Assembly: GCA_029246685.1 (NCBI GenBank)
Contig: JAQWMR010000018.1
Coordinates: 62,001 to 126,000 of the forward strand
Direction: 5' to 3'
From: Acidimicrobiales bacterium
Lineage (GTDB): Bacteria; Actinomycetota; Acidimicrobiia; Acidimicrobiales; Aldehydirespiratoraceae
DNA length: 64,000 bases
Shown: positions 10,463 through 16,932 of the stretch, piece after piece
How positions within the stretch are numbered: position 1 is the first letter of the stretch
Layout of the letters: each line of letters opens with the position of its first letter
The notes under the pieces: generated by a model
What the model was told of the DNA's origin: nothing
Seen by the model: only the letters and a program-made list of their open reading frames with translations
Databases searched by the model: none
Program-made: the position numbers and the translations under genes

Positions 10463-11653
10463 GTGCCGAGCGGTGTCGCCTACGACCCTTACGACGTCGA
10501 GATCAATCGCAACCCGTATCCGACCTACCGCCGGCTTCGCGAGGAAGCGCCCGTGTACTTCAACGAGGAACATGGCTTCTACGCGCTCAGCCGTTTCGAC
10601 GATGTAGAGCGTGGCCTCAAAGAATGGCAGAACTTCATTTCCGGCCGCGGGGCGATCATCGAGCTGATCAAGCTCGACATGGAGTTCCCGCCCGGTGTGC
10701 TGATCTTCGAAGACCCTCCGCAACACACTGCTCATCGCGGTCTCCTCTCTCGGGTCTTCACGCCGAAGAAGATGAACGCGCTGGAGGGTCGGATCCGAGA
10801 GTTCTGCGCCCGCGCCCTCGATCCGCTGGTGGGCGGCGACCGCTTCGACTTCATCGAGGACCTGGGCAAGCAGATGCCCATGCGAGTGATCGGCATGCTG
10901 CTCGGGATTCCCGAGGCCGACCACGAGGCCGTTCGCGACCGCGCCGACGCGAATCTCCGAGTCGCGCCCGGCGAGCAGATGGAGTTCGACGACACCAGCT
11001 TCGACCACGCCCAGATGTTCGCCGACTATGTCGACTGGCGGCAGAAAAACCCGTCCGACGATCTGACCACCGAGCTCCTCACCGCCGAGTTCGAAGACGA
11101 CGACGGCGTCGTGCGAACACTGACCCGCGACGAGGTGCTCATGTACCTCACCGTGCTGGCCGGCGCGGGGAACGAAACAACCACACGGTTGATCGGCTGG
11201 ACCGGCAAAGTGCTCGGCGACCACCCCATACAGAGAGCGGAATTGGCTGCGGATCCGTCACTGATTCCCGGCGCCATAGAGGAGATTCTGCGCTACGAGG
11301 GACCCGCTCCACACGTTGCCCGTTACGTGACGACCGAAGTGATCGACCTTCACGGCACGACGATCCCAGCTGGAAGCCCACTCATGATGTTGATCGGCGC
11401 AGCCAACCGCGATGACCGCCGATGGGTTGACGGCGACGAATTCAACATCCATCGTCCGGCGAAAGCCCACCTTGCCTTCGGTCATGGCATTCACTTCTGC
11501 CTTGGCGCCGCGCTCGCCCGGATCGAGGGCCGAGTCGCGCTGGAAGAGGTGCTGAAGCGATTCCCCGAATGAGAAGTGGAATCCGACGCCGCCAAGCTCT
11601 CCCCGACCTCCACCGTCCGGGGCTGGGAACAGCTTCCCACGAGGATTGCCTGA
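10463..11653 (+). pseudogene. Cytochrome P450 with an in-frame TGA near its C-terminus
   Basis: The open part (GTG 10463 to TGA 11570-11572) encodes 369 residues with AGAGNETTTR (I-helix), EEILRYE (ExxR) and FGHGIHFCLGAALARIEGRV (heme loop). It ends at KRFPE, while the intact paralogue at 15375-16568 reads NRFPTWEL and continues to ...TSTVRGFESLRLRVT. Reading through the TGA in the same frame gives EVESDAAKLSPTSTVRGWEQ then LPTRIA and a TGA at 11651, exactly the missing tail. The TGA therefore sits at or beside a conserved Trp (TGG to TGA). The heme core is complete, so a shortened enzyme might still fold, but loss of the last strand pair makes this doubtful. Sequencing error is the alternative. 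Confidence 0.8.
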
Positions 11654-12499
11654 TGCGCGTGTCAGAATACGAGGGATCGGCGAGGGTCGCCCATGGGTGC
11701 TCACGCCGGGTGGCCGGTTCACCAAGGAGGTCGGTGGCCTTCCGGAGATGGCCGCTGCACTCGCCAACCACGGCAATCGCGTGATCCTCTGGGATCGCCC
11801 CAACTGTGGCGCGTCATCGGTCGTGTTCACGGGACGATCAGAGTCGGAAGTGCAGGCTGACGCCCTCGCCGCGTTGCTACGCCATCTCGATCTCGGCCCC
11901 ACCGTGATCGCCGGCGGCTCGGGCGGATCACGAGTGTCGCTGTTGACCGCGGCACGCAATCCTGATGTCACCGCGGGCCTGGCGATGTGGTGGATCAGCG
12001 GCGGGGTTCCCGGTCTGCTCCAGCTCGCCAACTACTACTGCATGCCGTCGGCCGATGCGGCCTGGCACGGTGGCATGGAGGCCGTCGTTGCCTCGACCAG
12101 TGGAAGGAAGCGCTCGCCAGTAATCCTCGAAACCGACAGCGATTCCTCAACATGGACCGCAGTGAATTTCTCCAAGTCATGGACCGGTGGGCGCTGGCGT
12201 ACTGCCCGTGCGACAACACGCTCGTGCCCGGACTCGACAACGCCGACGTCGACCGGCTCGACGTGCCGATCCTCGAGTTTCGCAGCGGCGAGTCCGACAT
12301 GTCGCACACACGAGCCACGTCAGAGGCACTGGGCTCCGGACTTCGGGCAGCGGAGCTCGTCGACCCGCCGTGGGGCGATGAAGAATGGAACGAACGCCGA
12401 GAGGCCGTCGAGGAAGTCGGTTCACTTTTTGTCCGCTGGCCCCTGCTCGTGCCCCAACTCCTGGAGTGGGCCGATAGAACAATTGGAGACCACTCATGA
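11646..12499 (+). pseudogene. Alpha/beta hydrolase, frameshifted
   Basis: From a TTG at 11646, one frame encodes the N-terminal half of an alpha/beta hydrolase: LTPGG near the oxyanion position, VILWDRPNCGAS, and the nucleophile elbow GGSGGS. Around 12089-12092 the similarity moves to another frame, which continues as LDQWKEALASNPRNRQRFL and ...VPILEFRSGESDMSH and ends at the TGA 12497-12499. That stop overlaps the next gene's ATG (ATGA), as expected for the true 3' end. The change of frame corresponds to loss of one base. I see no slippery heptamer there, so a decayed gene or sequence error is more likely than programmed shifting. Confidence 0.78.
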
Positions 12500-13434
12500 A
12501 AAGTGTGACGGTTCATCCCCTTCGAGACGATGGTTTCGGCGCGAAAGTGATCGGAGCGACCGATGTGAGCCTCGCCGATGACGACGCCCGGCGCGAGCTC
12601 AACGACGCGTTCGAGCGCCATGGGCTCCTCGTCTTCGAAGATGTCGAGTCCACGCCGCAGATGCAGGTTGCGATCAGCACGGTCTTCGGCCCGCTCAAGG
12701 AGCATCCAAGCAAGGCAACGCCTCGGGTCGGTGGGGACGAAATGGTCGGGGTCATCGAGATCCGCCACGACCCCGATGTCGGCGGCATGGTGCAAGTGGC
12801 CGGCTGACGGCTCTCCCAATGGCTCCCCTGGCACTTCGACCATTGCTACAACGACGAGCTCAATCGAGCCGGCGTGCTCAGAGCCATCACGATTCCCGCC
12901 GAAGGGGGAAGGACCCGCTTCGTCGACGGGATCGCGCTCTATGAGTCGATCTCGCAGGAGACCCGCGACCTCATCGACGGCGAGACGGTGCTCTACGCGA
13001 TGGACGTCGTACTCGCCAACCTCCATTTCGGGCGGCCCACCGACTTCCAAGAACTACGGCCCTCGCCGGGAGCGGCCGAAGTCATGACCGAATACGCCGA
13101 TCGGCCCCGAGCCGAACATCCCGCGGTCTGGACTCGTCGCACGGGAGAGAAGGTGCTGCACGTGTCGCCGTGGATGGCGAAGGGACTCGTCGGGCGCGAC
13201 GATGCCGAGAGCGAGGCTCGCCTCACCGCCGTCTGCGACGAGATCGTCGCCGCGGCCGACGAATTGCACTACTCCCATCAGTGGAAGCCGACCAACATGG
13301 TGATCTGGGACAACTGGCGGGTGCTGCATTCGGTGTCCGGCATGGCCCCTGAACAGGCTCGCTGCATGCACCGGACCACAATCGCGGGCGACTACGGCCT
13401 CGGCCGCTTCGAGACTGCCGTCGCCGCCGGCTGA
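12496..13434 (+). pseudogene. TauD/TfdA-family Fe(II)/2-oxoglutarate dioxygenase with an in-frame TGA
   Basis: ATG at 12496 opens 103 codons (HGLLVFEDV, FGPLKEHP) and then meets TGA at 12805-12807. The same frame continues with RLSQWLPWHFDHCYNDELNR, which contains the His-x-Asp iron motif (HFD), and later NMVIWDNWRVLHSVSG and the distal His/Arg segment RCMHRTTIAGDYG typical of TauD/TfdA. A Trp (TGG) at the stop is the simplest ancestor. As written, no iron site would be made unless the stop is read through. Intact relatives hydroxylate or cleave small organic acids and sulfonates with 2-oxoglutarate. It is the third consecutive damaged gene of one short operon. Confidence 0.82.
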
Positions 13435-15374: not shown

Positions 15375-16568
15375 TCAGGTGACGCGGAGTCTCAAGCTCT
15401 CGAAACCGCGAACCGTTGACGTCGACGAGAACCGGGGTTCGCCGTCGAGCTCCCAGGTCGGGAATCGGTTGAGAAGTTCGTCCAGCGCGATCCGGCCCTG
15501 AATTCGAGCCAGCGCGGCGCCCAGGCAGAAGTGAATGCCGTATCCGAACGTGACGTGAGCCAGCTGTTCCCGGTGGATGTCGAACCGTTCCGGTTCCGTC
15601 CACCGACGCTCGTCTCGGTTCGCGGCGGCGACCAGGAGGATGATCGCGCTCCCGGCCGGCACCGTCTGGCCGTGCAACTCGACGTCGGCGGTGACCGAGC
15701 GAGCGACACCGGGGCCTGGTGGCTCGAATCGCAGGATCTCCTCCACCGCGGCAGGGATCAAATCACGGTCCTCGACGATGTCGCGCCTCTGGTCCGGGTG
15801 TTCGGCCAGCAGCTTGCCCATCCACCCGATCAGTCGGTTGGTGGTCTCGTTGCCGGCGCCGACAATCACCGAGATATAGGTGAGCAGTTCCTGGCGCGTC
15901 AGGTGACGTTCGGAACCGTCGGAGTCAGTGAAGGTCGCGTTCATCAGCTCGGTGATCAAGTCGTCCGAGGGGTGCTCGGTCCGATAGTCGATGTAGGGAG
16001 CGAACTGATCGTTCACCATGTCGCCGCTGGTATCCATCTTCTGACCTGCTTCGGTCCGAAGGTTCGCGTCGGTCCGGTCGCGGATCGAGGCCTGATCCTC
16101 CTCCGGGATCCCGAAGAGCTGACCGATCACCCGAGTGGGCATCTCGGCACCGAAGTCCCGGATGAGGTCGAAGCCTTCGGAGCCGACCAGCGGATCGAGA
16201 CAATCCGCGCAATATTTCCTGATCTCGGGTTCGAGATCGGCGACCTTTCGCGGAGTGAACACGCGCGACATCATCTTGCGATGTTCGGTGTGACCGGGCG
16301 GATCCTCCATGATCACCGTGCCGGGCGGGAGTTCGATGCCGGCCTGGATCAACTCGAGGATGTTCCCCTTCGCCGACGAGAACGTCACCGGGTCGCGGAA
16401 CGCCCGTTCGATGTCCTCGAACCGACTCAGCGCCCAGAAGTCATGCGCTTCGTTTCGATACAGCGGTGCTTCGGTCTGAAGCCGTCGAAACGTCGGGTAG
16501 GGATCGGCAAAGATCTCGGTGTTCCACGGATCCCAGTTGAGCGGCGCAGTGTCGGTGGTCGAAGCCAT
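15375..16568 (-). CDS. Cytochrome P450 (intact paralogue of the damaged copy)
   Basis: A 397-residue P450 starting at the ATG at 16568, behind GGAGAA; the open frame extends far upstream without family similarity. Motifs are the I-helix VGAGNETTNR, EEILRFEPPG, and the heme loop FGYGIHFCLGAALARIQGRI, with the C-terminal RFPTWEL and STSTVRGFESL. It is visibly the closest relative of the broken P450 at 10463-11653 (shared EDPPxHTxHR, SRVFTP, DRxDANLR, RLIGW) and could cover its loss. It is flanked by an amidohydrolase relic downstream and an IS relic upstream, with no redox partner nearby. Confidence 0.94.
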   Translation of the reverse strand: MASTTDTAPLNWDPWNTEIFADPYPTFRRLQTEAPLYRNEAHDFWALSRFEDIERAFRDPVTFSSAKGNILELIQAGIELPPGTVIMEDPPGHTEHRKMMSRVFTPRKVADLEPEIRKYCADCLDPLVGSEGFDLIRDFGAEMPTRVIGQLFGIPEEDQASIRDRTDANLRTEAGQKMDTSGDMVNDQFAPYIDYRTEHPSDDLITELMNATFTDSDGSERHLTRQELLTYISVIVGAGNETTNRLIGWMGKLLAEHPDQRRDIVEDRDLIPAAVEEILRFEPPGPGVARSVTADVELHGQTVPAGSAIILLVAAANRDERRWTEPERFDIHREQLAHVTFGYGIHFCLGAALARIQGRIALDELLNRFPTWELDGEPRFSSTSTVRGFESLRLRVT

Positions 16569-16593: not shown

Positions 16594-16932
16594 TCAACGC
16601 CCATTCGGTGGTTCGGCATTCTCTTCGCGACAATGGAGCAGGTCATCGAACGGAAGGCACAACCAGAGGGTGCCGAGCTCCGGCCGGGCGGCTTCGATGT
16701 GCACGAGCGGGTCAAGAACCCGGCGGTGATCGGTGGCGCCGACGCGAACTTCCATCTCGTTGGCTCGGCGCAGCTCCCTGTGCTCCTTCTCCAGCAGTCG
16801 CATCCGGGCCCGCTCATCGTTGGTGAACCCGGGCCGTTCGGCGGTATCGGTCTCAGCTCGGCGAACCCAGACCCGCAGCGCACACTCACGAACCTCGACC
16901 GGATACCGGCCAACCCTCTCTTGTCCTGACAT
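16594..16932 (-). mobile_element. Decayed IS3-type transposase OrfA relic
   Basis: The frame from ATG 16932 opens like an IS3-family OrfA (YPVEVRECALRVWVRRAETD then ARMRLLEKEHRELRRANE): a shortened helix-turn-helix region and the Leu/Glu-rich E-L-R-R-A-N-E segment that normally precedes the frameshift to OrfB. The helix-turn-helix is largely deleted, and after RANE the frame no longer matches. I could not find OrfB with its DDE residues or terminal repeats. It marks past insertion in the damaged zone. The remaining 16933-17041 stretch holds no gene. Confidence 0.6.

Follow-up and report, generated by a model that had tools for sequence, protein, structure and literature searches.

The window analysed here is a 64,000-base stretch of DNA comprising bases 62001-126000 of the 131-kb contig C17 in genome G000, a 3.8-Mb assembly of 20 contigs that is 93.9% complete, with 3.7% contamination and a GC content of 65%. 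Within this window, three overlapping plus strand genes form an operon encoding a cytochrome P450 (10463-11653), an alpha/beta hydrolase (11653-12499) and a TauD/TfdA-family dioxygenase (12496-13434), and its nearest named relatives lie in Acidimicrobiia MAGs. The P450 stop codon and the hydrolase ATG share a single base (TGATG, 11651-11655), while the TauD ATG and the hydrolase stop overlap by four bases (ATGA, 12496-12499), where an earlier note on this sequence had placed the end of the hydrolase frame. Codon-based gene calling yields 58 genes that together occupy 94% of the window; outside the operon these are long intact ORFs, and nowhere but in the operon are genes broken into pieces. 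The surrounding genes include a KstD-like flavoprotein, P450s, acyl-CoA dehydrogenases and enoyl-CoA hydratases, which together may mark this neighbourhood as one of steroid- or terpenoid-like catabolism. Our search of the literature on steroid or P450 pathways in Acidimicrobiia returned nothing specific, and a search of a plasmid collection found no copy of the operon, only matches to the P450.

When read through its interruption, the first gene matches the Pfam p450 profile (E 4.5e-25) and contains the Cys-ligand region, FGHGIHFCLGAALA, ahead of an in-frame TGA at 11570-11572. As the earlier note had stated, this TGA lies inside the frame, and P450 sequence runs on beyond it to the TGA at 11651-11653. 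The proposal that it replaces a Trp codon agrees with 9 of 14 homologues, whereas the other five encode Tyr or Phe in this column. The premature stop leaves 369 codons and cuts the protein 3' of the haem-ligand region; because only the last ~26 residues are lost, it is conceivable that the truncated P450 retains some activity. The hydrolase gene (Pfam Abhydrolase_1, E 5.4e-7) was compared with its intact orthologues in a DNA alignment of nine rows that represent eight distinct sequences, G002 and L051 being one contig, and the alignment reveals two frame-breaking changes. At 12086-12092, outside homopolymers of four or more, the gene has one base fewer than every aligned orthologue, consistent with the frame change previously reported at ~12090. 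The second change, at the 5' end of the gene (11653-11680), had escaped notice. Orthologous hydrolases start MPVxxLDGxEIAYxLVGEG, and from the ATG at 11653 to the GEGRPW motif (~11679) the window falls a net 22 bp short of them, thus placing the ATG out of frame with the gene body. The earlier statement that each gene carries exactly one lesion consequently gives way to a count of one, two and one. The hydrolase body could start instead from the TTG at 11646, the sole possible start in the downstream frame, which would yield a different, shorter N-terminus from which the conserved one is absent. We considered whether the 5' end merely reflects use of this TTG and prefer to read it as a lesion, since the ATG at 11653 and the codons that follow match the start of the orthologues.

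The third gene, likewise read through, matches Pfam TauD (PF02668, E 2.5e-44) over 7-295 and its HFD motif is invariant; the assignment to the TauD/TfdA class was checked on the profile and, column by column, on the HxD motif. Its in-frame TGA lies 103 codons into the gene at 12805-12807, ahead of the iron-binding HxD motif, and the sequence WHFDHCY resumes directly 3' of it, as already noted from the sequence; this motif proved to be invariant across homologues. The residue replaced is a different matter. A probable Trp had been proposed, yet the corresponding column in 84 homologues is mostly Lys, Gln, Arg or Glu (K 38, Q 17, R 15, E 12, N 1, M 1 and W 0), and at the codon level the closest orthologues show Gln in most cases and otherwise Glu or Arg. 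The nearest solved TauD/TfdA relative by sequence is (R)-phenoxypropionate dioxygenase (6d0o, PF02668; E 1.6e-20). The operon enzyme shares the sequence family of the TauD/TfdA 2-oxoglutarate dioxygenases and retains the HxD motif 3' of its stop; it differs in forming part of a separate subfamily whose genes frequently occur in a pair with an alpha/beta hydrolase gene, and in its interrupted frame. Taken over the whole operon, all three genes carry frame-breaking lesions relative to intact orthologues, with four such changes in total: two nonsense mutations, a 1-base frameshift and a short loss at the 5' end of the hydrolase.

Two of these four lesions are TGA codons and conserved sequence resumes after each, which is what would be expected if UGA were read as Trp or bypassed, by recoding or a suppressor tRNA, leaving the operon genes functional. 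Such decoding should confine UGA to Trp columns and free it from its role as a terminator, whereas, among the 249 called genes at least ~150 codons long, TGA terminates 190, and the TauD column is occupied by K, Q, R or E in 82 of 84 homologues. Furthermore, all 45 tRNAs found in this 94% complete genome have ordinary anticodons and none is able to read UGA; the anticodon TCA is absent from the set and the single tRNA-Trp found is CCA. Even if stops were read through, the two hydrolase frameshifts would be left unexplained. In light of this combination, UGA recoding or read-through in the operon has no support and is largely refuted, and we regard its probability as practically negligible.

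A more serious concern is that a local assembly or sequencing error, arising where coverage was low or where the source sample contained several strains, makes three intact genes look broken. Assembly errors are a common source of spurious pseudogenes (Cooley and Wright 2024, PMC11017572), and the operon resembles those in showing frameshifts and in-frame stops at the level of the assembly; that the genome is in 20 contigs and includes some contamination points the same way. To place the lesions against a background, called proteins of relatives were aligned to ~329 kb of genome G000 (the window plus 14 stretches), in which 112 of 316 genes were testable by homology. Codon-scored gene calls served as queries, those built from all long ORFs being swamped by antisense ORFs at this GC content. 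Among the 112 tested genes, the only broken ones were the three operon genes and two with frameshifts elsewhere, in ~110 kb of other tested sequence. One of the latter is an acyl-CoA synthetase at ~503.8 kb of contig C10 (L139 ~3780), interrupted by a single frameshift beside a GGG run; a protein 83% identical to it is intact in G004. The other, a probable frameshift, affects a repeated-motif protein at ~416.3 kb of the same contig (L138 ~16260), where the repeats continue in another frame. Both could themselves be errors. At least four lesions in 2972 bases versus two in ~110 kb corresponds to a Poisson P(>=4) of 3.5e-7, or 5e-5 with the background at its upper 95% limit. The lesions are thus clustered beyond chance, and errors spread evenly across the assembly do not explain them, which disfavours a genome-wide error-prone assembly. 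This is also where the operon departs from the published spurious pseudogenes, whose counts are raised over whole assemblies rather than concentrated in one operon. As for an error confined to the locus, the lesions differ in type, a net loss of 22 bp is atypical for base-calling error, the 1-base hydrolase lesion falls outside long homopolymers, and in most close orthologues the Gln codon is more than one step removed from the TauD TGA. Given these observations, we consider a local error unlikely, while granting it more weight than any other alternative discussed here; the clustering relative to background argues that the lesions are genuine in the organism itself.

The timing of the damage can be gauged from the coding sequence itself. 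We applied a two-ratio codon model (our own implementation, GY-type with F3x4 frequencies) with the lesions masked, and found omega on the window branch to be 0.069 for TauD, 0.053 for the hydrolase and 0.030 for the P450, compared with 0.061, 0.044 and 0.050, respectively, on the background branches, a second ratio gaining at most 0.6 lnL. Neutral evolution along the window branch (omega = 1) was rejected by 18 (TauD), 15 (hydrolase) and 25 (P450) lnL units, although the P450 test is weak, its homologues being 55-63% identical and its synonymous sites saturated. For the hydrolase and TauD combined, the model accommodates neutral evolution at the tip of no more than ~0.07 substitutions per codon (~2.4% per base). 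Constraint therefore remains fully visible in the coding sequence, as in recent pseudogenes, and its equality with that of the relatives implies that the operon genes were in use for nearly the whole time since the split and that their death is recent. Preserved constraint dates the decay rather than proving it, since intact genes bearing erroneous lesions would show equally strong constraint and look alike.

With the lesions clustered, the rest of the window intact and the signature of purifying selection undiminished, it is highly probable that the locus represents a catabolic operon of three genes, non-essential and patchy in its distribution, that has recently become pseudogenised. Recent decay of the whole operon had been proposed in the earlier note and remains the best explanation, even though the premise of one hit per gene on which it was built does not stand. 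Presumably, the P450/hydrolase/TauD operon ceased only recently to be of selective value to this lineage, perhaps as its substrate pathway was no longer needed, whereupon mutation would have broken all three genes through two stops, a 1-base shift and a short deletion, with the later hits probably being neutral. Such decay is ordinary and involves no new mechanism. Of 378 pseudogenes in Salmonella, 346 carry only one inactivating change, and short deletions and premature stops dominate (Kuo and Ochman 2010, PMC2916853). The operon resembles such young bacterial pseudogenes in its few inactivating changes per gene, its short deletions and premature stops and its well-kept coding sequence, and differs in that the damage extends across three neighbouring genes of a single operon, one of them with two lesions. 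The finding is a modest one: it captures cleanly the state of an operon shortly after its death, and intact relatives are available for comparison. It also carries two cautions: automated annotation would call several short genes at this locus, and the presence of a hydrolase-TauD accessory cassette in a genome does not mean that the cassette is working.

When examining the distribution of the genes, it is evident that the hydrolase and TauD frequently travel together. In the fetched set, intact pairs occur at seven distinct loci (G041, G002/L051, L048, L049, L050, L052 and L053), with the L053 contig ending inside TauD; L031 has the hydrolase alone on its contig. Flanking genes vary among these relatives and no P450 lies directly upstream. 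Within the genus, TauD orthologues are found in G000 and G002 and a hydrolase in G001, while G003-G006 encode only distant TauD homologues; the cassette is seen in three of seven genomes. This patchy presence, together with the changing neighbourhoods and the lack of an adjacent P450, indicates that the hydrolase-TauD pair behaves as an accessory cassette.

Why the operon became dispensable is a separate question. A special case of recent operon decay would be that a P450 paralogue 4 kb away made the operon's own P450 redundant, relaxing selection and thereby triggering the decay. The paralogue (15375-16568, minus strand, from gene calls and identity comparison) is indeed intact, as the earlier note had it, but it is hardly close, being only 56% identical to the broken P450 and surpassed by two other paralogues (60.5% on C19 and 58.7% at 39.7 kb of C17). 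Furthermore, the hydrolase and TauD are both broken despite having no close paralogue in genome G000 (best 38% over part of the sequence, and ~30%). Redundancy of this kind would cover at most the decay of the P450, and we consider it very improbable as the trigger for the operon; dispensability of the whole accessory pathway is a better fit, and a lost need for the substrate pathway would be the simplest account. A transposon was also considered as the cause of decay and rejected, since a decayed IS3-type orfA remnant at 16594-16932 (minus strand) lies outside the operon and interrupts none of its three genes. This remnant, detected by neither the Pfam nor the plasmid searches, shares 36% identity over 91 columns with the orfA at 532-804 of contig C17 (E 1.6e-9), the alignment being interrupted by an internal gap of 31 residues.

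G004, a single-contig genome of the same genus, likewise has a broken homologue of the P450, disrupted by a ~44-codon deletion and two frame changes (L156:13669-14713; G004:C1:1733669-1734713). If the hydrolase-TauD cassette and its P450 family are gained and lost time and again, this second broken P450 raises the possibility of active counter-selection, whereby the loss would be adaptive rather than neutral and the pathway perhaps selected against in some niches; we give this only a slim chance. In the sister species G002, the intact hydrolase-TauD pair (G002:C153; L132:3851-7295) is located 3' of a sulfatase-like gene, so named from the start of its sequence only, and this neighbour hints at a possible sulfate-ester substrate.
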